A program made the position numbers and the translations under genes. 27,645 nucleotides of DNA from Zarea fungicola (Eukaryota; Ascomycota; Sordariomycetes; Hypocreales; Cordycipitaceae): positions 1-27,645 of the forward strand of contig FWCC01000261.1 in the NCBI GenBank assembly GCA_900169235.1, read 5' to 3'. A model generated the notes under the pieces. That model was not told where the DNA came from. It saw nothing but the letters and a program-made list of their open reading frames with translations, and did not search any database. This document shows positions 2,087 through 27,522 of the stretch, one piece after another (the stretch's first letter is position 1; each line of letters starts with the position of its first letter).

Positions 2087-2241
2087 GGCACTTTGGCCGA
2101 GTGGTTGTAAGTACAAATTAGTGTACCCGCATTTATACGCATTCTAATTAGATGAAAAAGAAGGCGCCGTGTTCAGGGAGTCCTTGATTTCTCAGACATT
2201 CGCGGTCCGAAAGGGCGTGGGTTCGAATCCCACAGGTGTCA
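2087..2241 (+). tRNA. tRNA-Leu(CAG), copy 1, with D-loop insertion and anticodon-loop intron
   Basis: The acceptor arms GGCACTT and AGGTGTC pair over seven positions (with G-U pairs), followed by discriminator A2241. The D-stem is GCC/GGC, the anticodon stem CCGTG (2167-2171)/CGCGG (2201-2205), and the T-arm GTGGG-TTCGAAT-CCCAC. A short variable stem (TCC/GGG) marks a class II tRNA. The anticodon CAG is at 2174-2176. A canonical intron of 22 nt (2178-2199) follows position 37. The box A match TGGCCGAGTGG is at 2094-2104 and box B GGTTCGAATCC at 2220-2230. A six-T Pol III terminator follows. The D-loop is interrupted by 54 nt (2107-2160), described separately; without it the loop reads GAGTGGTTAA, typical for tRNA-Leu/Ser. 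Decodes CUG codons. The body is identical to copy 2. Confidence 0.9.
2107..2160 (+). other. Intron-like insertion in the D-loop of tRNA-Leu copy 1
   Basis: The 54-nt insertion starts GTAAGTA, contains TTCTAATTAG about 15 nt before its end, and ends AAAAAG. These match a fungal donor, branch site and acceptor. Exact GT...AG removal joins GTGGTT to AAGGCG. A hairpin is also possible, since AATTAG near the 5' side can pair with CTAATT near the 3' side, so processing by tRNA endonuclease cannot be excluded. Confidence 0.7.
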
Positions 2242-2251
2242 GATATCTTTC

Positions 2252-2257
2252 TTTTTT
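2252..2257 (+). terminator. Pol III terminator of tRNA-Leu copy 1
   Basis: A run of six T residues starts 11 bases after the discriminator base. Confidence 0.8.
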
Positions 2258-5174
2258 GGATATTTCCAAAATCCCCGTACGCGAATGCCGCATTTTTTTT
2301 TTGCAGGAGGGTGTGGCATTGGCGGCGGGTAGCTGGCGCAAGGACACTGTATCAATGACAAAGACCCACTCCGGTATATTAGCGGTTGGTCCGCAACGGG
2401 TAGAACTGTAGGAAAATGAAACAGAATAATCGAAAATCAAACAAGATATCTAATTCTGTGACTACGATTTGATGGAAGCACATGCAACATATCAAACTCT
2501 GCGCCGATGTAACGTCGAGGCCGAGGCAGTGAGCTCCGTCAACGACGTATCCGTCTTCCAGAACTACGGCGTAATATGGGCGATACAAACAACAAAAGCC
2601 AGGACTCCAGTACCATTATGCCAGACACAGGAGAGCCCGCCAGCGATGACAAATGACTCTCGCTTGCCTGGATGTTTTCCGCAGAGCTAGAGCGGTCCAG
2701 AAACGCCCAAGAAGCCACCACTAACCGCAACTTCACAGGTCTGGGATGCCCTCAACGGCACAGGCTGCTCAGGCACAATGATGACATAAACAATTCCAGG
2801 CCCGCCACTATCAAACGTGCGCGTTTGACGAGCATAAGCCTTCTGAGACCAATATGGGATGATGGGATGGAGGGCGAGCAGTATAGCATCGAATTGCCGG
2901 TCGGAAATGTCGCCTCGGCAGAGCTGTATTAGAATGACTCTGGCCAGCGTAACGTAAGAGCCGCTTCCTTGCAAAAAAAATTCACACGTATATCCACCAA
3001 TGTAGTTTTTATAACTTGGTTTCAAATTATTATAAAATGCAGGGCGACGCTGATGTTTACGAATCGCCGATTACCGAAAGGTCGTTAATTGCGCAATGCG
3101 CTGCGATGTGAGTTGCGTCGTCTTTATTTGGTACACGTATATATTTTATAAGCGATATTGTTAGATCCAAGACCTTGCCAGTCTTCACCCTCGAGGAACA
3201 GAGGCACAGAATACAGGCCCACAACATGCGCCAGACGTGAGCGCTGACCTCAGCGTCGATCGCAGCCATACTGACAGCTTCCACATTATACACAAACTGC
3301 ATTCCTAATCTGCTATAGCAGATATCATAAGGAGAGCTGTATCAATCTTGCCAGCCATTCATGAAGAGCCTAGCATAGGCTTGCAACACGCGGGGAATTT
3401 GTTGCAGCTTACTAAGGTGGCACACACAGCTGCTCGTGGGGCTAGCATTGCTTACCCATTCCACGAAGATGTCCATGCACAACGCCGCTCAATCAATATT
3501 AAGCATGGACGTCCTGTCCTAACCCTACTACAGACGATACGACCAGATGGTGACACAGTTAACGTGACACGCTAGAAGTATGAGACACTGCGCGCAGGTA
3601 CAGTTAAGACTAGTACATTGTTGCATAGACAATGCAGCGGTTTCCGAACACCACGGTCCATCAGCACACTAACTCATGCACGTAGGCCGAAAATGCGATT
3701 GCGATGGTCCAAAACCCAGGTATCGTAGCCAACGCCTCCCACGAACAAACGCAATAGCAGGTACCCAACGAGACGATGTCATATAAGAGTGCGACACACA
3801 AACAATTGAGGCCGCGCAACAAAGGCGCCTGCCAGAGGATGCGACACTGGACAGACCAATAATAAGAGCCAAGATAAAGACACAGGAAACACTGCACCCG
3901 AGCTTGCGCCGGCAGTCGATACCGCACACACACATGTGGTGACGCCAACGCCACCCACATCCACGCCTACAACCAGGACACAGAGTTATCCATCATGACT
4001 CTTGAACTCAGGACGAGATGATTAAACACAGGACAAGAGGCTTACCATGTGAATGGTTCAGTGAAAGTAATACTAGCTTAGTATTTAGACAACGAGGGCC
4101 GTATCTACATTACAGCAGATGGTCACGTAGTGGAAGGATGGGTATACCTTCCCTGGCACAGATAAAACTAGCTAGGGAATACAGCACCTCTCATAAGTCA
4201 ATTAACCTTACACCAACAACGGGCCAACAAGCCTGACAAAATGTAGGAATCGGACAAGAGGCAGGCATAAACACTTCTGAATTCCAGTCATGCCTGGTCT
4301 GTCCACCAGGCTTTGCGTATTTTCTTCTGTATACTAAGTTATTGACCACACCTATTAGAAACTGGGCTGTAAACGGACGAAGCTGGTGTAAAGTTGCTCC
4401 ACTCGATTGATGTATGTAGCTAGCATTCCTCTTGAATGGTACGGCTCTGTCCTCGATGTCATTTACGCGACATGTCTTCTTCGTGGAACTAGTGATACAT
4501 TGTAGAGAACTTGGTATAATGCAGTGCTGGTCCTGAATAAAAATACAGGAAGGCTTTGTTGTGATGCTACAGGATGTAAAAAGAACTATCGGAAAAAAAG
4601 GACACCGAACTGGTTTTGCAGTCCCCCCAGCAGTGCCTTTGTCACATACCATGGCTACCACCTTGTCTGGGTGTCGTGGCCAAGGCGCGGCGCCTGTTGC
4701 TAAATGTCTTTAAATTGAAACCGGTCGATTTAAGGTATTGGGGCGTTTGAACTCTACTTACAACCACTTGGCCAAGGTGCCTTATGTTTTCGGTTAGCAA
4801 ATTGTGAGTTATTTTTATATATGATACAAAACCCTTGCATGCACTCTCGATCAGTTACTGAGCCAGCCAGTGCTACAATTCGGTATCAAGCACGTTCATT
4901 CATAAGCGCTACTAAATAAAGAAAATCACCATATATGGTATTTTTGAGTTGGTCAAATAAAAAAAACGCAGCGGAATTCGATGCACAATGTTAAACACGG
5001 CCATCTTTGCTCTCAAAACAAAATGTTTAATCCGTCTCGTGGCTGATGGTTTGGGTGACACTCCGCCAGCTGTACATCATCCACAAGCCGTCCTGCACCC
5101 TGCTATACTATACGGCGATCACGGCATGATCGAGTACAGCATTTTATTTCGACAATCGACAACTATATGCCAGT

Positions 5175-5666: not shown

Positions 5667-8527
5667 ATGGGGGACCAAATCCATCAAAGTACACCATCGA
5701 ATGTGCTACCAGCTAAACGCAGACGTTCAGTGCATAACAACGAGGACTCTCAGTTCACTCCCAAACGTCGGATTAAGTCAGAGGATATTGATACTCTCGA
5801 CCTAGAAAGCAATGCATGTGACGGTAAGTATACACTCAGTTCTAGGTTTCTACTATGTCTAATTAATGCATAGATGATGCAGACATTGAATTACAGAACC
5901 TAGAGCCTTCTAAATCACGTGCACCGCGTTATACAATGTCAAATGTAATATTCACGGCGAAAAAATTGCAAAATATAACATTGAAAAGCGTTGTATCCGC
6001 CCCTATAGCAAGAAACAACGGTCTACCAGAACGGTTAACAGCTCTCATGGGCACAAAACCATTCGACGTCGTATACAATGATCCAAATCTGCCCGTCATA
6101 CTCGATCGCAATTTCATATCATTGGTTAAAAATATCGACAGCGAAGATAAATTTGCCCTTATGGCCCGAAATAATAAACAATGCCGCTTTTTTCTTGATA
6201 TCGACAAAGCATAGTATACTTTGGAGGTTGCAACTCAGATATGTCAAAAGCTCACCGACGCATTAAATCGATGGCCAGATATTAACGATATAAGCGCCCA
6301 AAAACGTGGCAAGACTGTACGTTCTGGAACCAATGTCCTATTTGACGCTGCTGTGAGAAGTGTCTGCCCTCACTCTCCAACGAAAGCTCCGGCACCTCGG
6401 CTTGAACTCTCCACATCAGCTAAAGACCCACGCATGAGCTGCTTCATATTTATTATTGACCCCAATCAGAATTATAAGGGCGTGCGAAAACACTTAGTCG
6501 TGCCTGAAATCGCGGATGTCCCAGAGGCAAGAAACATCATTTTAAACCACATTGGTTCAAATAAGTATGAAGGTGATGATAATGGGACTTTTAAGTCTGT
6601 CGTTGATCAGCAAGTACTAGAAGGCAAGATTACAGATCTGTCGGTTATATCTGGATTAAAGCTGTGTGAGAGGTATCTCCGCTACCTAATTGAAGAAAAT
6701 GGGCGCCTACCTAGATTTATGAGCGTAAAAGACTATGGCATATAGGAACGCTCATGGCGTCAACGCTTTGAATCTAATAAGCAGCCGAGGCTATATAATG
6801 GTCAGCAGTTAACTAACCATCTTCAACACCCAACCACAGGAATTCGAATTCAACCTTGTCGAAATCTAATGAAAAACACCAATGGTATTTGGCCTCATAT
6901 ATGCGTGTTTTCATGGGACTTTAACTTCACAAGACGAGTTACTCTTATTGGCGATCAATCCTTCATATCAACAGGCGATCCACTCAAGGCATGGCGCGAC
7001 AGGGCAAAGGAGGCAGACATCATCAACGCAGAGATCATGAGAAAACCATCACCCTTCTCTTGCTACTGTCCCGAGCGAGGATCGTCAATAAAACATCCGT
7101 GCGGAAAATGCGGCATTCAAACACCCTGCAAATATCTCTCTCCAGGCGCATATGATCTTTTACAATGCAAGTCTTGCAATGAAAGCCAAGCGAACTTGAC
7201 TAGATGCGCTGTTCGAATCGTCCGCGTTTCGTTGGAACGCTCACTTAAACACGAGTTCAGACGGCGCGGGTGGGACAAAGGCGAGAGATTCGAACAACTC
7301 CTACATGAGGGACGTGCCAAGACGATGTCTGATCTAAGCAATCAGTCTGGAACAGCGTACCTAAGTGCCTTCTCAAGAAAGCTTATCACTTACACTGCTG
7401 TCCAGAGGTATCTAATGCCTAGCGTCGACGCGGTGTTCCCATATGGGAACGACGGAAAAGGATGTGCAGTTCTGCACGCCCCGACAAATATTTGTATAAT
7501 TGAGCAAGCCCTCAATTTTATGAAAAGCATTCATCTGCCAATTACAGTTCAAAAGATTGCAGACTACTTTGTGCGTTACTCGAAACTAAAGGGTAGTGGC
7601 TATCTAGATTGGGACATTTTAGAGTCTAATCTCGTCACTGAATGTGACCGTCTCACAACAATCCGGATTAATGCAGGATGGAAGATCACCGATCGTTCAA
7701 AAACTGGAGTTACGGCTGAATTGATGGAATACCTTCGTGAAGAATGGGTGTCTGGAAAATTTCGCTCGAACCAGCCCCAGATACAACCCAATCGCCGAAT
7801 GTGGGCAAATTTGCCCAGATTCCGCCGGTGGTCTTCATCCGACAAAGTGCGCCTGCAGACTATTTTCCAGGAAATAGAAGAGTGGACTGGTGTTACGCTA
7901 CCTCAACGGTCAGGTTGTCCGTACTTTTGTCATTCGTCGACGATGCCGTCTGATTGGGACTGGTCGAAATGCCAGAATCTCATGGAGAGTCGCCTCGCAA
8001 GAATGACAGAATGGTGCAATCGCAACTGGGATACAGTCGATACCGCCGATACAATTTTTCTCGAATGCGTCTTTCAAGTATGTATTGGAAAAATGGTGAT
8101 TGTGGATGGCGACCGTGATGAAGCGATGAAACGATCATACATGGATACATATGGCGAATTCTTGGGCCTTCCCCTCAATGTATATCACCACAACCCCTTG
8201 ACTTTTGTGGTTGCCCATCGAAACCACGGGGAGCAGATGCGAACAGGCTGGCCTGCCCAACCAACTACCATAAAGGAGCGTTTAGATGGGAATACGCTCA
8301 ATAACATTCTTATCGAGTCGCGAACAAGCAATTATCTAAAGCACGACTTTCACAGCTCATTTTATTCGGAATTAAAGGAGCTTGTGAAGAGCGTGCAGAT
8401 GCCGACTGAGCTTGTGAATGAGGAGCTGCCCCTGACACCATACAACGAATTATTTGAGAGGCAAATAGAGAAACTGGAATTTGACGACGATGAGGACATT
8501 GATACCTGTCTTATTATAACCGATTAG
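5667..8527 (+). pseudogene. Primase-like (AEP-type) protein with Cys cluster, interrupted by two in-frame TAG codons
   Basis: Exon 1 is 5667-5823 (ATG; basic, with KRRR and KRR runs suggesting nuclear import). A 50-nt intron 5824-5873 has GTAAGT, CTAATT and ATAG. Exon 2 then stays open in one frame from 5874 to the TAG at 8525 except for TAG at 6212 and 6743: 936 codons if these are read as sense. Just before the first TAG is FFLDID (D161, D163), like the catalytic hhhDhD motif of archaeo-eukaryotic primases. KGVRKHLVVPEI (H259) resembles the following sxH motif, and VVDQQV (D297) could be the third acidic position. Residues about 449-487 (7061-7177) form a Cys cluster (CYC, CGKC, PC, CKSC), comparable to the zinc knuckle after the catalytic domain in UL52/PrimPol-like primases. 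The primase call is inference from short motifs; the C-terminal half is unrecognised. Convergent with the HNH gene. Another 33 open codons, starting with a KGKKRRK run, follow the TAG at 8525. Confidence 0.55.
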
Positions 8528-11803: not shown

Positions 11804-11961
11804 GGCACTTTGGCCGAGTGGTTGTAAGTATAAATCGGCATCCCCGCTTTTCTACGCATTCTAATTCGATGAAAAAAAAGAAGGCGCCGTGTTCAGGGAG
11901 TCCTTGATTCCTTAGACATTCGCGGTCCGAAAGGGCGTGGGTTCGAATCCCACAGGTGTCA
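11804..11961 (+). tRNA. tRNA-Leu(CAG), copy 2, with D-loop insertion and anticodon-loop intron
   Basis: Every mature-tRNA position equals copy 1: acceptor GGCACTT/AGGTGTC with discriminator A11961, the same D, anticodon, variable and T arms, and anticodon CAG at 11894-11896. The anticodon-loop intron 11898-11919 (22 nt) differs from copy 1 at two positions. The D-loop insertion 11824-11880 (57 nt) differs at nine aligned positions plus three extra A residues. The flanking DNA is not similar to that of copy 1, so this is an independent gene copy rather than part of a long duplication. A seven-T terminator follows. Confidence 0.9.
11824..11880 (+). other. Intron-like insertion in the D-loop of tRNA-Leu copy 2
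   Basis: The 57-nt insertion begins GTAAGTA, contains CTACGCATTCTAATT (shared with copy 1 except one base) and ends AAAAG. About 45 of 54 aligned positions match copy 1, with the donor-like start, the CTAATT and the AAG end all kept. Exact GT-AG removal gives the same D-loop as for copy 1. Confidence 0.7.
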
Positions 11962-11969
11962 CACATTTG

Positions 11970-11976
11970 TTTTTTT
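11970..11976 (+). terminator. Pol III terminator of tRNA-Leu copy 2
   Basis: A run of seven T residues begins 9 bases after the discriminator base. Confidence 0.8.
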
Positions 11977-13048: not shown

Positions 13049-16000
13049 ATGGCAAGGGGAAAAAGGGCTCGCGCCAGTTCGAATAAGCCAAGAGGTAAAA
13101 GACAGAAGAAAAGATCTCCATCTCCTGAGCCAGCGAGGTCTCCGTCTCCTGGACCAGAGAGACCTGCATCTCCTGGACCAGCGAGGTCTCCGTCTCCTGG
13201 ACCAGAGAGATCTCCATCTCCTGAGCCAGCGAGGTCTCCGTCTCCTGGACCAGAGAGACCTCCATCTCCTGAGCCAGATCCGGACGCGATGAAGGGTGTT
13301 TGCCCCAACCCTCCCCATTCTAAAGCGGAGAAACAGGCCAACACGAACAATTCTGCCAGTGCGCTTTGCACCAACAAACTGCCAGGAAAACCAAAGGTTC
13401 CTGGGCAGACTGCATCCACATCGCCAGAGCAGGATGAGGCTGCAAAGGCTGACGCAGAACGTATTAAGAAGGAAAAGGAGGAGGCGGCCGAGCGAAATAG
13501 GCTTCTCCGAGCACCTGAAGGTGTAGTCCCGGAAGAGCCTTCCGAGGGCGTCAGAGGCATCGGGTTCGACATTGTCGAACCCGACTCTAACGAAGCCACC
13601 TTTTACCCCAAGCAACTGCCTACGGCCGTCTACGGCCCCAGGTCCGAAGACACCCGATGGCCTTTGGCGCGGAGGGCCCTCATACCACTCGAGGGCTATG
13701 TCACATGGAAGGGTAGGCGTATGACCAGATGGACAGGACCAAGACTGGCCCGGCTTTTAGCGAAGAAGAATGGATCCTCTACAACCCCCCCCGTGTAGGG
13801 TCCAGCGGAATTGACTATGAAATGGCCAGCGTGCCTGTATTCCCAGCTGCAGTCCACGCGACAATGAGGGGACAACAAATCAATAAAATCAACTGCATAA
13901 AGCAAGACATCAACGCTGGTGCGAAGGCTTCTTTGGAGAGTATTGCACAACCGGCGCTTCATCCGAATATTACCTTTATCAAGCCACCGAGACCAGCAGC
14001 CTCACCCAACTTCATCGCTGCACTGCTGGGCTTCGAAAAGATCTCGCATTTTTACTGTTTTCTAGACAGGGATGGTAAGCAAAACAGCACTGTGCCCTGG
14101 CTAATGCACATTAGCCAGGGCTTTCACAGCAAAACAGTCATTCTAACTAGCATGATAGTTTCCAAGTTGGCGTACCAGTTACGTAGAATCTTTCTCAGAA
14201 AGGATGAGAAAGGAAAAACGGTTGGACTACCCAAGTTCAACGCAATCATGGAAGGAGGCAAAATGGTCCCAAAGACAAATGATTCTATACTCGAGACTCT
14301 TCAGCAGACAGTCGGCTCGGTCTGCTGTGAAGAAACAGACGGAAGACCAGTCGTCCGGGAGAAAGAGCACAAGTACCCCTCAGACCACCCGATGGCTGGG
14401 AGAGTCAAACCGATAAACCCAGAGCAGTCACTCTTCGTTCTAATGTTCAGGTTGATTACTTTGTATCCGTCTCGCTTCCAAGACAGCTTTCTAGACAGCA
14501 AGCACAGCGTTTTGGGAATTCACCCAAACGCGTGGAGTGCAGCATACCTTGTCCTACACTATCTTCGTCTTCGCCGAAGTATGAAGCCGCCGTCTCACTC
14601 AAATCGAAACACAAAGGCAACGACGGCGAGTGCTGACTGCTATACCCTTGGCTACTTCAGCGATGATAAGAAGGCGGACATCTATGAGTTCAACGAAGTT
14701 GAGGTTATAGACAAGAGGAAAGAACAAAACATGCTACATGAGCAAAAGTTCATGGATGCGTATCCTGGCATTTTCAACACCGATGGGGTCGATGACTTTG
14801 CCAATCTTCTTGACCCCGACGCCGTGCTCAATGCATTCAGATCACTGGATCCTGCCAAAGTCAATGCGCTATTCAGTGGAGGGAAACTGCATGACCCAGG
14901 GAATATCCTCAATAACCTGCTCTCCGACAGTCTTGCTGAAATGATTGCCAAGAGCGGTGGCTTTGATAGCGGCGAGACCAGTGACTCGCAAGTCTCCGCG
15001 ATTCCACCTATGGACTCCGAGTCTTCAAAGTGGCTCATGCGAAAGTGCTTTGAGTGGGCAAACATCCAGTTTGATGGAGAGGTCCAGGTCCCTCCCGAGC
15101 TTGTCAACGCAGTCCGTGAACGCCTTGACATCGCCGGCCAGGTATCCATGGCCGAGAAGGACGGCGAGACAGAAGAGGCCCTCCGAATGTACGTCAATGA
15201 GAGTGAAGCGCAAAAGGAGGAAAACCGTCGAGGTATCGAGGCCATCGACCGTCTCCATGTCGCACAGGAGGTACACGGCGGTTTCTTACCAGACATATCT
15301 CTGGAGGATGGCATGGAGGCGCTCAACATGGTCGGATTGGACGTCCACGACCTTCGTAGTCCTCACGCCGTCAAGGAGGCACCTCCAGCTAAGCCGCATC
15401 AAGTTGTTGGTAAGTGAGAACCATACCTGCCCTGGCTGATGCACATTAGCCATGGCCGCTCCAGCTACCCGTGCCTACCGGTACAGGGCCGGTTGGCTAA
15501 TGCACATCAGCCAGGGCCTATCCACACCTTACTAACGTTCTATCCAGATGCGGCATGGATCCTCAGTCAATACAAGAGCGGCCTTGGTGTCGCTTTTCTT
15601 GCAAACGATTGCGGTGTCGGCAAAACACTTACCATCCTTCTCAGTCTTGCGCATCACACTTTCAACAGGATCTCTGAGGTACAGGATGAAGGTTTTACCC
15701 TGAAAGAAGGGGAGAAGAAGTTCCGACCGTCGCTTGTATTCTTACCACCTGCGACTGTCCAACAATTTCAAGAGGACTGGGCGCGGTGGTTTAGAGGCAA
15801 GCTGCATCTTTATGTTTGCTACGGAACCGATGGGTCCGTTGGCAGATCCAAAGGAGCCAAGCATTTAAAGGACACCAATGAGCTTACGACGCTGCAATAC
15901 CAATTAATGGAACAGTCGGACTCTCCTTCCGTAAGTGCCTGATCCTGAGCTGGCTAATGCACATCAGCCAAGTCTCGCACAGAGATCAGCCTTCATCGCT

Positions 16001-18811
16001 AACAATTCACAGACACAACAAACTGTCATTGTTATTCCATATCAGACCGCAGTTCGCAGGATGATCGCATCTTCCGAAGTCTGCGCCATCACACCAAAGG
16101 AGCTCGCGGCCCGACAAGACGACACGGGAACAGCACCACTCCGCCAACGCCTTGAAAAGCTAGAGGCCAAAAAGAAAAAAGACTCTGAAAAAGTCACCAA
16201 GAATTCAGAAGAGTCGACTGGTAAGCGCAAGCCAAAAAATATCGAAGATATCTCTGGTGTAAACAACACTGAAGAGAAAATCGTTACTTTGCACGTCCCG
16301 GACTTTGAGGTGGATTTCATAATCTGCGATAAGGCGCATTTTGTGAAAAATCCCAGGTCTGAAACCCATCTAATCGTTCATGGATTGAAGAAGGAGTTTT
16401 TACTTCTCGTCACGGCAACTCCGCTCTTGAATTCGGTTCGGGACATGCTTGGGTATCTTGGTATTATCTGGCGTCCTGAATGGCCCTTTGGGTATACTGA
16501 TCTGGATCCGATACCGGCAGAGGAATTCTATCTAGAAGACACGTGGAATGCCATTAAGGAAGGGAAGGAAGACGCGCTCGTGACTTTAAGTCGGGTGACA
16601 ACACACAACAGTGAAAAGGCGACAGATTTGTCAAAGTTTAGTGCGAATGAGCTTCGCCGACGGGCTGCATTTGTGCAACTCATCATCGACAAGAAGCATC
16701 CGGCCTGGATTCTCAATCCTGGCCTGTATTATGCATATGGCAAAACTACAGACTGGACCGTCAGTCTTTCACTTCAGGCTCTCAAGCCAATCATGAAAAT
16801 GATATCGATTCGCAGAACGATGACGACACCACTGTCTCTTCCGGGGGGAGAGACTGTCACGCCCGGCGGGGACATCCCTCCGCTGTCAATCTTCACAGTG
16901 AAGGTTAAGCCCCTGGCAGCGAACGTCCGGGTCGTCAACACGCATACCACGGCCCTCATGGCCAACATGTACATGCTGGCGCCGGGGCAGAGCCAGGTAG
17001 GCACGAAAGGCTTGGTTCAGCAGTCTGGGGGGGCGATGCTCAACACAGGGAAGCTGAGAACTGCGCAGGTAACTTCATTCCATCCCGACTTGTATTGGAT
17101 GACGCAACCGAACGCTAGGACAGCAAAGCTGCTCAAGGACCCGGCTGCTGCGCGACAGTTGCAGCAGCGCGGCAAGAGTGTCGACTTCACGGCGCAGCTG
17201 GCCCTGACGCAAAACGCTGAACAGCTGCCGCCTGTGGAGGGCGACCGTGAGATTATTGGGCTTGATGGGACAGCGCTCGGTATCGATGCGGAGAATCTAG
17301 CAGAGGATCTTGAAATTCCGACAGAAAAGATCAAAGCAAAGACGAAGGGGGCCGCTCCCACTGCAGGCGGAGTTGCCGAAGTGAATGACTACTTCACTAA
17401 GGATCATACATATGGACTACGTTGGCTGCATATGGGGTTTCGAAAGTCCAGCCGAGAGACCCTTCCGGAGTCCAGAATAGCCATGGCAACATATTTTTGC
17501 CATGATTCTCCAAAGATGGCTTATATCCTCGGCAAAGCACTGGAGATGCAAGCGAAAGGAGAGAGACTGCTGATATACGCAAATTATCCAATTACTTGCG
17601 CGTGAGTACAACTCTCTGTCTACGTTGGGCCTGGCCAATGCACATTAGCCAGCACCTATTGTGCCATGGAGTGTCTGCTTGGTTGTGCATTCCGTGGCCG
17701 ACCATGGAGTGTCGGCTAATGTGCATTGGCCAGGGCCTACATTCTAATGATACTCTAAATCAGGAGCTAATAAATTTACAGTTTTATCACCGCGCTGCTT
17801 AGTTATTGTGGAATCAAGACCATTGGGATTCGGAGCAGACAAACCTCGGAACAGCGGCAGAAGCTTATTGCTTCTTTCAATGACCCAGACACTGACGCGG
17901 AGTGTCTGGTGTCTTCCATGCAGCTAAACGCATTCGGGGTGAATTTTCATCATCAATGTCATCAGGGAATCATCGTCGAGGAGCCTTGCAATATGTCGGT
18001 TACGCAGCAGGTTCTTGGGCGGCTCTGGCGAATTGGCCAGAAATCTCATACATTCTGGCGGATTCTCTACGGTGAGAATACAATCGACGGATTCTTGCTT
18101 GGTAGATCTTTGGAGAAATATACTTTAACACAGGCTGCAGAATCCAAATATGGTGAAGAAGTCACCGGTGAATTTGCCACCATTGCCGCATATGAGGTTG
18201 CGCGGCTTGTGTTCGGGCAGGAAACAAACGGGTACGCCACGGCTCGGGTGCCGTGGCACCTCATCGACCATGCGGCGATGAAGAGGGAAGGCCAATTTTA
18301 TTCTGCACTTGGAACGGCAATATTGTGCAGAAATCCAGCGGCACTCGTAATGACGCGGGAAGGTGTCAACTTGGACAAGGTTGCACGCGCGTGGAAGCCC
18401 GGAATGGAGCTGACCGACGAGATATTGAGTGGTAATGCGGATGCGCTCAAGGATGGAACCACTATTGGCAACTTTGTCGGCGCAGAGGAGCCAGCCACTA
18501 CACCAGTCAAGGGTGCAGCATCGCTAGAGAATGAGGCAGGGTCATCGTCTTCAGTGGCAACGCCGACCTCGACACATTCCTCGCAGAAATCAACCAGGCG
18601 CTCGAAGAAAACTGTAACTCCAGTGGAGAAGCGGAGCAGACCGGATAATGAGTCAGATTCAGACGACTCTGAGTTTCTAACGCCAACCCCAAAGAAGCAG
18701 AAAACCTCTGGAATGGCGTCGCGACCGACCAGAAGATTTGAGGACAATACACCGAGCCCGAACAAAGATGCAAACAAGCCCACGGGCAAGGCGGTCAGAA
18801 CAAAGATCTAA
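13049..18811 (+). CDS. SNF2-family ATPase, five coding exons, apparent frame break near 13.72 kb and DKAH in place of DEAH
   Basis: Exons 13049-14074, 14159-15409, 15548-15930, 16013-17601 and 17782-18811, stop TAA; about 1760 aa. The four introns (84, 138, 82, 180 nt) have GTAAG/GTGAG donors and AG acceptors, the outer frames agree, and each holds the short palindrome. The N-terminus is basic (RGKRQKKR), followed by seven RSPSPxPx octapeptides (13112-13279) and a charged coiled-coil-like stretch. Helicase motifs: I DCGVGKT (15607-15627), Ia PSLVFLPPATV, II DKAH (16328-16339), III VTATP, V SSMQLNAFGVNFH (about 17912), VI QQVLGRLWRIGQ (18005-18040). Family role: ATP-driven DNA translocation or nucleosome remodelling in the nucleus; the E to K change in motif II should abolish ATP hydrolysis. 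Between about 13717 and 13730 the reading frame shifts by one base with no plausible intron. The C-terminus is Ser/Lys-rich and disordered-looking (TPTPKKQKT). Confidence 0.8.
13112..13279 (+). repeat. Seven 24-bp tandem repeats encoding RSPSPxPx octapeptides
   Basis: Units read RSPSPEPA, RSPSPGPE, RPASPGPA, RSPSPGPE, RSPSPEPA, RSPSPGPE and RPPSPEPD. Each has two Ser-Pro steps, as in substrates of proline-directed kinases. The high DNA identity between units suggests recent expansion and makes the copy number likely to vary among strains. Confidence 0.9.
14094..14121. repeat. Palindrome family copy in SNF2 coding intron 1, perfect 12-bp arms
   Basis: GCCCTGGCTAAT and ATTAGCCAGGGC pair exactly around GCAC. 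The host intron is 14075-14158 (84 nt; donor GTAAGC, branch TTCTAAC, acceptor GATAG). Without the palindrome the intron would be about 56 nt, the size of introns in the neighbouring genes. Confidence 0.95.
15429..15457. repeat. Palindrome family copy in SNF2 coding intron 2
   Basis: GGCTGATGCACATTAGCC core with GCCCT/TGGCC outer arms; lies shortly after the donor of intron 15410-15547. Confidence 0.9.
15486..15518. repeat. Palindrome family copy in SNF2 coding intron 2 (second)
   Basis: TTGGCTAATGCACATCAGCC core with outer GGGCC/GGGCC sequence; lies upstream of the branch site TTACTAACG in the same intron. Confidence 0.9.
15949..15972. repeat. Palindrome family copy in SNF2 coding intron 3
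   Basis: CTGGCTAATGCACATCAGCC core inside the 82-nt intron 15931-16012 (GTAAGT donor, GCTAAC branch, CACAG acceptor). The arms have one mismatch. Confidence 0.9.
17628..17653. repeat. Palindrome family copy in SNF2 coding intron 4 (first)
   Basis: CTGGCCAATGCACATTAGCC core near the donor side of the 180-nt intron 17602-17781. Confidence 0.9.
17712..17737. repeat. Palindrome family copy in SNF2 coding intron 4 (second, opposite orientation)
   Basis: CGGCTAATGTGCATTGGCCA core with a GTGC centre, the reverse orientation of the copy at 17628. A 12-bp direct repeat CCATGGAGTGTC (17664 and 17702) lies between the two copies. Confidence 0.9.
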
Positions 18812-23767: not shown

Positions 23768-25628
23768 ACGTAGTTCACAGGTAAGCGGGCCACATGGGTT
23801 AGTGGGCTAGTTCGCGTTTTTTTTTAATTAAACACATATAAACCTTAATAATTTAACAACGGAAAATGGTTTCTACGTTAAATAAAGCAAATATTATCTT
23901 AGCCATCTAAGCATTAGAGAAAGACCCCAAATTAAGCGTCCAAGCCGCAGCGCAAACCTATAACATGTCCCAAACAACACTTAAGCGTCGGCAACAGAAT
24001 ATACCAAGCCAGGCCAATACAACTTTAAAAGTTCAAAGATTGACTATTAACAAAGAAAAATTACTTATTTAATATATTATCAACCTAGATTCCCAATCTC
24101 AGCTGCCGCGCCTACATAACGTAGAAGTTATAGCGAATTAGTTGCTAGAGCTATAACACAACATTCTAGTTAGAAGGAACTAGGTTATAAGCTTTATTAG
24201 ACGACATCTAGAGGTCATTACGCATTTATTGCATTAGATTGACTATTAAAGAGCCTAATATAAAGATCTAAATATTTTTAAAGGCTAGTTTTAGCTTATA
24301 GAGAATATAATTATAAAATATAGTATATAGGACATAGATATATATAACTTTAATAAGACTAGCTTTATAATAGGCTTAATAATATTAAAAATAGTCATTA
24401 TAGGCTTAGAAAGACATTAAAAAGGTTAAAAAATATAACCTAAAAATCAAATATAGATAATAGTTATATAGTATATTAGTATAGTTAGTGCTATTCTCCC
24501 GCTTTTTATTATTATTATAGCTAAAACCCACCTCTCTTCCTAGTATAAAAATAGCCTATTACCATATATATAGGCTATTTCTATATTAGAAAATAAATAA
24601 ATAATAAATAAAAAAGGCCTTAACTAACTAAAATACTTTAATTAGTATTTAAAAATAAAAAATACTAGTACTTATTACCTCCTAATCCTTAATAGTTATA
24701 AGAGTTACTAGTTAGTAGAATTTAAGTTATATTATAAGGCAAATAATATAATTATATTATATATGCTGGCTTATTTATTATATATGCTTTAGCCACTTAA
24801 TATTGCCTACTTTTAGCTGCTAAAATAGGTATATAGTTAAGTAATTAATAATCTAATAAGAGCCTAGGTAACCTTAATTACTAAGGAGGAATTTCTACTT
24901 ATATTTTATAGTATATATAAAGCTACTATAATAGAAAAAAATATCCTTATAGGTTTCTATAGTGCTGGCATTTGGCCTTTTAATCTAGAATATATCATTT
25001 TATAATTAGATATAGTATTATAGACGCCTTTGCCTCCTAGGACCTTAGGTAGGCTTAAACTTCCTTAGCTTCTATAAACGCCTAATAACCTAATAAAGGC
25101 TTTATTATATATAGAATATATTAAGAAGAGGATAAGAAACTATTAAAATAGCTTACTAGTAGAAATTATTAAGAGTTTAATATAAATATTAAAGTATATA
25201 ATAAAAGCTCTATAATAGATGGTCCTTATATAAGACCAACTTAGGGAGCTAGAGGCAGTAAATAAATGGCTTTCTTAGCACTAATATATTAAAAAAAAAC
25301 ATTTATAAAGTAGAGGATCTCTTACTTTAAAGGCTAGTAAAAATTTAGCTACTTAATCTTAGGTTAAGGTTAAGAAAAAGCGCGCTAAAGCTAAAAGTTC
25401 TAGTTAGCTAAAATATAATAAATTACACTACTAGTGATATAGTAATTATAGCGAAATTAGCCATAATTCTAGAATATATAAAGAGATAATAAAAATTACT
25501 TCTTTAGAGGATTCTAAGTAGCTTTTATTATTTAGATTTTATTGTATTTTATAGTGGTTGGCTATATACCGTGGTGTCATGGTAGGTAGCCTACTAACCT
25601 ATATGGCCCACTTACCTATAAACTACGT
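23768..25628 (+). mobile_element. Fot1/Pogo-family DNA transposon copy A, 1861 bp, RIP-degraded
   Basis: TIRs of about 44 bp: left starts ACGTAGTTCACAGGTAAGCG, right is its inverted, C-to-T altered version ending CTACGT, with TA on both sides. The transposase starts at ATG 23866 and runs on the plus strand to about 25519. Recognisable parts: an HTH_psq-like region (ALEKDPKLSVQAAAQTYNMS), a CENPB-type DNA-binding region (INLDSQSQLPRL), the first DDE acid context DIYNFNKTSFIIG (D and E changed to N and K), and a C-terminal GHNSRTC-type knuckle read as SHNSRIC. More than ten in-frame stops make it inactive. The length and TIR size match Fot1-type elements. Confidence 0.88.
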
Positions 25629-25661
25629 TAAATATAAAGATCCTACTATTATTTATAGTTA
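25629..25661. other. 33-bp spacer between the two Fot1 copies
   Basis: This 33-bp segment, bounded by TA at both ends, matches 29 of 33 bases of 23099-23131 inside the old relic. It therefore looks like a piece of another old relic into which copies A and B inserted on either side. Confidence 0.6.
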
Positions 25662-27522
25662 ACGTAGTTCACATATAAGCAGGCCACATAGGCAAGTAGG
25701 CCACCTCTTATAACCTTAGGGTATATAGCTAACTATAATAAAATAAAATAAAATAGAATTAATAAAATCTAATTAAAATCCTCTAAAGAAGTGATTTCTA
25801 CTTTATTATTATATATTCTAGAATTATAGCTAATTTTACTATAATTACTATATTACTAGTAGCATAATTTATTATATTTTAGCTAACTAGAACCCTTAGT
25901 TTTAGTGCATTTTTTCCTAACCTTAACCTATAATTAAGTAGCTAAATTTTTTCTATTTTTTAAAGTAAGAGATTTTCTAGTCTATAAACACTTTTTTTTA
26001 ATATATTAATACTAAGAAAGTCATTTATTTACTGCCTCTAGGTACTTAACTTAGTCTTATAAAAGGACCATCTATTATAGAGCTTTTATTATATACTTTA
26101 ATATTTATATTAAACTCTTAATAATTTCTACTAGTGAGCTGCTCTAATGGCTTCTTATCCTCTTCTTAATATATTCTATATAAGATAAAGCCTCTATTAG
26201 GTTATTAGGCATTTATAGAAGCCAGGGAAGGGCTAGTTTATTAGAGGTCCCTAGAGGCAAAGGCATCTATAAAATTATATCTAATTATAAAATAATATAA
26301 CTTAGATTAAAAGGCTAAAGTCTAGCACTATAGAAACCTATAAAGGCATTTTTTTTTATTATAGTAGTATTATATATATTATAAAATATAGGTAGAAATT
26401 CCTCCTTAGTAATATATATTATATAGGCTTATATTAGATTACTAATAGCTTAACTATATGCCTATTTTAATAGCTAAAAATAAGCAATATCTAATAGCTA
26501 AAGCATATATAATAAATAAGTAGGCATATATAATATAATAATAGAGTTTGCCTTATAATATAACTTAAATTCTATTAACTAGTGGCTTTTATATCTATTA
26601 AGGATTAAGAGGCAATAGTGGCTAGAATTTCATAGTTTTATATTATTATTAAAATGTTTTAGCTAATCTAAGCCCTTTTTATTTATTATCTAACTATTTT
26701 CTAATATAAAAATAGCCTAGGTATAAGGTAATAGGCTATTTTTATACTAAGATGAGAGGTGGGTTTTAGCGGTAATAATAATATATGGCAGGATAATACC
26801 ACTAGTTGCACTAATACACTAGATAACTATTGTCTATGTCTAATTTCTTAGTTATATTTTTTAACCTTTTTAACGCTTTTCTAATCCTATAACCACTATT
26901 TCTAAGCTTATTATGCCTATTATAAAGCTAGTCTTATTAAAGTTATAGATATTTATATCTTATATATTATATTTTATAATTATGTTCTCTATAAGCTAGA
27001 ACTAGCCTTTAAATATCTTTAGATCTTCACATTAGGCTCTTTAATAGTCAATTTAACGTGATAAACACGTAATAACTTCTAGGTGTCATCTAATGAAGCT
27101 CATAACCTAGTTCCTTCTAACTAGAATGCTATGTCACAGCTCTAATAAGCGATTCGCCATAACTTCCACGTTATATAGGCGAGGCGGCTAGGAACGAGAA
27201 TCTAGATCAAGGATATATTAAATAACTAGATCCTTCTCTTCTTTTTTTAATTTCCGACCATTTGGGCTTATATCGGCTTAGCTTGGTATATTTCGTTGAT
27301 GACGCTTAAGTGTTATTTAGGGCACATTATAGATTTAAGTAGCGCCTTAAATGCTTAATTTTAGGTCTTTCTTTAAAGCTTTAATAGCTAAGAGAACATT
27401 TACTTTATTTAATGTAGAACCTATTTTCTATTATTGAGTTATTAAGGTTAGAAGGTGTTCAATTAAAAAAAAACGTGAAGTGGCCCACTCGCCCGTGTGG
27501 CCCGCTCGTATGTGAACTACAT
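25662..27522 (-). mobile_element. Fot1/Pogo-family DNA transposon copy B, 1861 bp, inverted relative to copy A
   Basis: It has the same length as copy A, the same TIRs (ACGTAGTTCACATATAAGCA at the left; inverted GTGAACTACAT at the right) and TA on both sides. The transposase lies on the minus strand from about 27424 down to about 25771. Its start codon is ATA where copy A has ATG, again a G-to-A change. Stops are at partly different places from copy A, showing that the two were mutated independently. The two copies are tail to tail, giving a 3.7-kb imperfect inverted repeat. Confidence 0.88.

Follow-up and report, generated by a model that had tools for sequence, protein, structure and literature searches.

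The window, a stretch of 27,645 nucleotides that makes up the entire contig C427, one of 456 contigs in a genome totalling 43,144,919 bases, carries two tRNA-Leu(CAG) genes and the remnant of a third (Table 1). The first gene, copy A, is interrupted twice. The Rfam tRNA model spans it with a score above the gathering score of 29, leaving one large insert in the D-loop and another insert in the anticodon loop. A 54-nt segment, gtaagtac...cattctaattagatgaaaaag, separates its first 20 bases (GGCACTTTGGCCGAGTGGTT) from AAGGCGCC. Excision of the segment from GT to AG joins GAGTGGTT to AAGGC and yields the D-arm GAGTGGTTAAGGC, and in the spliced gene ARAGORN recognises a tRNA-Leu(CAG) whose anticodon-loop intron is 22 nt long. 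A genome-wide pattern search places TGGCCGAGTGGTTAAGGC, without interruption, at eight nuclear sites; a ninth listed match, with one extra T, lies on C218, which is taken as the mitochondrial contig. The initial annotation had described a tRNA-Leu(CAG) with a GTAAGT...AAG segment in its D-loop and, in addition, a normal anticodon-loop intron, and had proposed that exact GT-AG removal restores a standard D-loop. Both points hold, with the restored D-arm found uninterrupted at the eight nuclear sites. The window genes have the features of a type 2 Pol III gene, namely an A box, a B box, and a T-run. In copy A, the segment which we take to be the A box is intact and lies upstream of the intron.

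Table 1. Features of the tRNA-Leu(CAG) genes in the window and the interrupted tRNA genes of the genome (insert positions in this study's own tRNA numbering).
Feature	Location	Strand	Remarks
tRNA-Leu(CAG) gene, copy A, interrupted twice	2087..2241	+	Rfam tRNA 31.2 bits; Leu(CAG) once the D-loop insert is removed
Copy A, A box TGGCCGAGTGG	2094..2104	+	Presumed; read from sequence
Copy A, putative GT-AG intron, 54 nt, D-loop, ~20a/21	2107..2160	+	Donor GTAAGT, acceptor AAAAAG
Copy A, branch-site motif CTAAT	2144..2148	+	A at 2147, 13 nt from intron end
Copy A, ordinary anticodon-loop tRNA intron, 22 nt	2178..2199	+	Register per ARAGORN
Copy A, B box GGTTCGAATCC	2220..2230	+	Pattern match
Copy A, T-run, putative Pol III terminator	2252..2257	+	Sequence after gene
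Third Leu(CAG) copy, remnant	4755..4781 (starts 4781)	-	First 20 gene bases with two changes, plus donor GTAAGTA
tRNA-Leu(CAG) gene, copy B	11804..11961	+	Rfam tRNA 31.3 bits; layout as copy A; mature sequence identical to A
Copy B, putative GT-AG intron, 57 nt	11824..11880	+	CTAAT with A at 11864; 45/57 aligned columns identical to copy A
Copy B, ordinary anticodon-loop intron, 22 nt	11898..11919	+	Contains both A/B spliced-form differences
Copy B, B box	11940..11950	+	Pattern match
Copy B, T-run	11970..11976	+	Sequence after gene
Leu(CAG), two genes	C427 (window contig)		Insert ~20a/21
Leu(UAA)	C98		Insert ~34/35, within anticodon
Leu(AAG), two genes	C123, C276		Insert ~18/19
Pro(AGG), two genes	C299, C305		Insert ~13/14
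Thr(CGT)	C172		Insert ~35/36, within anticodon
Trp(CCA), four genes	C318, C341, C357 (twice)		Inserts ~24/25 and 47/48

Copies A and B are identical at all 79 mature bases, and their D-loop inserts are alike at only the columns given in Table 1. The spliced forms differ at two positions, both inside the ordinary intron. The flanks of the two genes are unrelated, although CAAA precedes both starts and a T-run follows both ends. If the exons drifted like the insert, the probability of no change in 79 bases would be about 1e-8 by our own arithmetic. Gene conversion could be an alternative cause of the exon identity. For the third-copy remnant, the B-box search found no B box. The exact D-loop donor context has three perfect matches genome-wide, all within the window, and three one-mismatch matches outside it, around which no tRNA was seen by eye. 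An uninterrupted tRNA-Leu(CAG) of different sequence, which is not an exact counterpart of the window genes, lies on C450 (L194:862-960). Its locus (C450:43340-44340) is a tandem cluster of three Leu(AAG) genes and this one uninterrupted Leu(CAG).

The remainder of the window has several features of its own. A palindrome like GGCTAATGCACATTAGCC occurs in 14 copies between 5244 and 19163, some of them within ORFs, and the pattern GGCYAATGYRCATTRGCC has six sites, all on the window contig and none elsewhere in the genome. A 1577-nt inverted repeat with arms 84% complementary and 13 nt apart occupies 24062-27228, within a segment whose GC content is 22-27% and which extends from about 22 kb as far as the contig end. 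ORFs at 15439-17605 match SNF2-related helicase domains, and relatives of a 552-aa ORF at 6869-8527 occur in Beauveria and Fusarium. A protein of Beauveria shares 45% identity with one window ORF. Over 94% of the query, the RPB2 of the genome (L091) shares 95% identity with a protein named from Beauveria thailandica; the other matches listed (best 120 of 2940) are at 86-90% identity, with Trichoderma, Claviceps, and Epichloe among those that carry names. These matches place the host in the Hypocreales, probably within the Cordycipitaceae.

Across about 123 nuclear tRNA genes examined in this one genome, 12 genes contain 15 GT-AG inserts at seven positions in six isoacceptors (Table 1). The gene set was built from B-box plus terminator patterns, supplemented by B-box sites without a terminator match, and the patterns favour particular B boxes. 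ARAGORN made 119 distinct calls on the nuclear loci, 111 of them outside the loci of the interrupted genes. The B-box/terminator-based search yielded no nuclear Phe, Gln, or Asn gene, and the set is thus partial. Seven further nuclear Rfam tRNA matches (C73, C143, C163, C170, C309, C329, C336) are available as coordinates only; at 72-87 nt, they are too short to contain such an insert. Two other loci (L153 and L187) carry genes read as Ala(CGC), in which C rather than T seemingly precedes the anticodon.

The GT-AG inserts do not occupy the canonical position 37/38, but lie instead in the D arm, inside the anticodon, and in the variable loop. Three Trp genes contain two inserts each and the fourth contains one. 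The anticodon is split by an intron in Leu(UAA) and Thr(CGT), and in Leu(UAA) a 3-nt exon (AAG) inside the anticodon loop separates the GT-AG intron from the ordinary one. In both interrupted Pro genes the A box is split, which could weaken their transcription. A T-run lies within 24 nt downstream of all 12 interrupted genes, which are spread over 10 contigs up to 366 kb long. Ordinary introns of the 37/38 type are also present in the Leu, Pro, and two of the Trp genes of this set. The four Trp genes (L172, L176, L181, L182) have in common a 3' trailer, ATTCCCACC[AT]TTCGGTG, a possible small hairpin that precedes the T-run.

Many of these genes escape standard tRNA finders. A search of the window at default settings reported no tRNA, and genome-wide searches with RF00005 returned 63 matches, missing the window genes and many others. 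With cmscan at E up to 1, a tRNA was found in three of the ten interrupted genes outside the window (L110, L033, L181) and none in the other seven (L165, L169, L176, L182, L172, L145, L163). ARAGORN, given the 12 unspliced genes, made no call for four, named the wrong isoacceptor for five, and reported the expected anticodon for three. After removal of the inserts, it returned the expected isoacceptor for 10 of 12; the spliced Trp genes of C341 and C357 (the first of two) were reported as '???' with the letters ccag. Interrupted genes of this kind could therefore account for gaps in tRNA gene sets.

All 15 inserts combine a GTNNGY donor, a CTAAY branch motif, and an AG acceptor, with the branch A 11-16 nt before the insert end. 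The donors are GTAAGT, GTAAGC, GTTAGT, and GTACGT. The acceptor is CAG in 11 inserts and AAG in the four inserts of the Leu(CAG) and Leu(AAG) genes. Insert lengths range from 53 to 69 nt with a median of 57. For the variable-loop insert of Trp, the donor was set at GTACGT because this leaves a five-base variable loop; GTGTAC, 2 nt away, was dropped, and the ARAGORN calls are the same for both. When seven representative inserts were shuffled 300,000 times each, donor, branch, and acceptor were all retained in one to five shuffles, and for the window insert GTNNGY...AG plus the branch motif survived in only 2 of 300,000. The ordinary tRNA introns in the 111 other ARAGORN calls (n = 74) include none of the form GT...AG, with two that start with GT and four that end with AG.

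Figures for Fusarium mRNA introns served as the reference because a frame-joining scan for mRNA introns at 57 loci, which gave 48 donors with a branch motif versus 13 in reversed sequence, was too noisy to yield a consensus for this genome. In excerpts of the Fusarium study, the median length is 57 nt, CTRAY is present in 91%, and the acceptor is YAG in about 94% and RAG in about 6% (PMC5677156). The window introns, whose acceptor is the rarer AAG and whose branch motif is CTAAT, are among the weaker cases of the set, and their reading leans on the other interrupted genes. Minimum free energy folds of the two window precursors have z-scores of -1.06 and -1.94. Pairwise comparison of the seven intron families (21 pairs) against middle-shuffled controls gave z-scores from -0.9 to 3.2; most pairs are without similarity, and the highest value belongs to the Trp D-stem and Leu(AAG) introns. 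A shared origin of intron families is possible.

Several genes of the same genome are counterparts that lack the intron. The spliced Thr(CGT) gene of C172 and an insert-free Thr(CGT) gene on C170 are the same at all 72 bases. At the site where the Pro(AGG) genes of C299 and C305 have GGTCT-intron-AGCGGT, two Pro(AGG) genes on C135 have GGTCTAGCGGT; of these two, the one at 148k shares all 72 mature bases with the interrupted genes, and the second differs by one base near the 5' end. Among the Trp genes, the D-stem intron is exactly absent from one of four: the gene at C357:103658-103793 reads GGTAGCGCGTCAG, and the other three read GGTAGCG-intron-CGTCAG. The Trp exon pieces beside the ordinary intron are identical in all four genes. 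For Leu(AAG), the intron-free relatives on C450 have a D-loop one base longer. Interrupted copies differ at none of 82 mature bases in Leu(AAG) and none of 72 in Pro, as in Leu(CAG), and their inserts diverge outside the splice signals, so that divergence is concentrated in the inserts. Four of the six isoacceptors, namely Leu(CAG), Leu(AAG), Pro, and Thr, also have intact genes; these may carry the load for the four, and some interrupted genes may be silent. An interrupted Pro gene had no match in viral and genome contig collections, and the Trp 5' end had none in a viral contig collection; few fungi are expected in either.

From these observations, the D-loop segment of copy A very probably belongs to a group of at least 15 spliceosomal (GT-AG) introns that this fungus carries in 12 nuclear tRNA genes of the Pol III type. 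The initial annotation had raised a spliceosome-like intron in a Pol III tRNA gene as a highly unusual prospect, and a non-canonical endonuclease substrate as a nearly as unusual alternative. The spliceosomal reading gains strong support from the second window copy and from ten further genes with donor, branch, and acceptor, and it is also favoured by the intron-free counterparts of Thr(CGT), of Pro(AGG), and of the D-stem site in Trp.

A different machine could be proposed, in which the inserts are non-canonical tRNA introns of the red-algal or archaeal type, with bulge-helix-bulge motifs at which the tRNA splicing endonuclease cuts. Introns of that type are described in the D arm for Cyanidioschyzon merolae, nucleomorphs, and archaea in excerpts of PMC4090602, and endonuclease-type introns are present in most of the interrupted genes themselves. 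The endonuclease mechanism, however, does not require the GTNNGY, CTAAY, and AG that are common to all 15 inserts, and this explanation is considered improbable. A test for the central helix of a bulge-helix-bulge found no excess pairing at the inserts, nor at the ordinary introns, and so does not discriminate.

The interrupted genes could also be pseudogenes killed by insertion, with intact genes doing the work. Excerpts of PMC4090602 state that eukaryotic insertions in the D and T arms are mostly thought to mark pseudogenes, and the genome does hold an uninterrupted Leu(CAG) of different sequence along with intact Thr(CGT), Pro(AGG), and Leu(AAG) genes. Yet the mature sequences are unchanged between copies while the inserts diverge, a pattern that gene conversion could also produce by keeping exons alike, and every Trp(CCA) and Leu(UAA) gene recovered in the partial gene search has a GT-AG intron. 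The pseudogene account is given a slim chance. An assembly or contamination artefact might be suspected from the window contig, which is short and partly odd in composition, but the 12 genes lie on 10 contigs, the longest reaching 366 kb, and the introns have diverged within families, which makes an artefact most improbable.

For the spliceosomal reading, gene anatomy, splice signals, the occurrence of genes with and without the intron, and insert-concentrated divergence are read directly from the DNA. The pathway proposed is as follows. Pol III would transcribe the precursor and end at the T-run. Recognising the donor (GTNNGY), the branch site (CTAAY), and the AG, the spliceosome would excise the segment; the tRNA fold would thereby be restored, and with it the anticodons of Leu(UAA) and Thr(CGT). 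The tRNA splicing endonuclease and ligase would then take out the ordinary anticodon-loop intron where one is present, leaving a presumably functional mature tRNA. The spliceosome is expected to act first because unspliced Leu(UAA) and Thr RNAs do not have a complete anticodon and because a 3-nt exon lies between the two introns of Leu(UAA).

The balance of evidence leans, with moderate confidence, towards a broader reading in which spliceosomal introns repeatedly entered the tRNA genes of this lineage. As part of the same reading, decoding of UGG (Trp) and UUA (Leu(UAA)) would depend on the spliceosome, and single precursors would pass through two unrelated splicing machines.

Introns of tRNAs and introns of mRNAs are treated as separate worlds served by separate machines. 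If the present reading is true, the spliceosome can act on tRNA precursors, and splicing independent of Pol II becomes directly testable, as does the order in which two splicing systems act on a single RNA. Because the mature tRNA product is tightly constrained, these genes would also offer a clean record of intron gain or loss. A search of open-licence literature, a body in which subscription papers are mostly not covered, had no paper on spliceosomal introns in tRNA genes among the matches listed, and an exact-phrase search, again of mainly open-licence literature, returned 0 papers.

Several known systems resemble these inserts in part. Canonical 37/38 nuclear tRNA introns differ from them in position and size, and in this genome none of 74 has the GT...AG form. 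The introns of C. merolae, nucleomorphs, and archaea are alike in occupying the D arm and other sites away from 37/38, sometimes with several in a gene, but they differ in relying on the bulge-helix-bulge and the tRNA endonuclease, and those of nucleomorphs measure 3-24 nt (excerpts of PMC4090602). GT-AG borders with a branch site, as in the present inserts, are described for none of the introns in those excerpts. Excerpts of PMC8527467 describe spliceosomal introns in lichen rDNA that are excised from Pol I transcripts, in yeast too. In both lichen rDNA and the present genes, introns of the mRNA type interrupt the transcript of a polymerase other than Pol II: Pol I for the lichen rRNA, presumably Pol III for the tRNA.

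Fungal U6 snRNA and U3 snoRNA genes carry mRNA-type introns, with paralogs that have and lack them, and excerpts of the 2017 paper state that, of the small structured RNAs, only U3 and U6 are known to be frequently interrupted (PMC5832005). U6 is a Pol III product (PMC10484740). Like the tRNA inserts, the U6 and U3 introns described in those excerpts combine GT-AG borders, a CTRAY-type branch motif, fungal intron lengths, and a small structured RNA as host (PMC5832005). Unlike them, the present inserts reside in tRNAs, at seven sites in six isoacceptors, and mostly share their precursor with an endonuclease-type intron.
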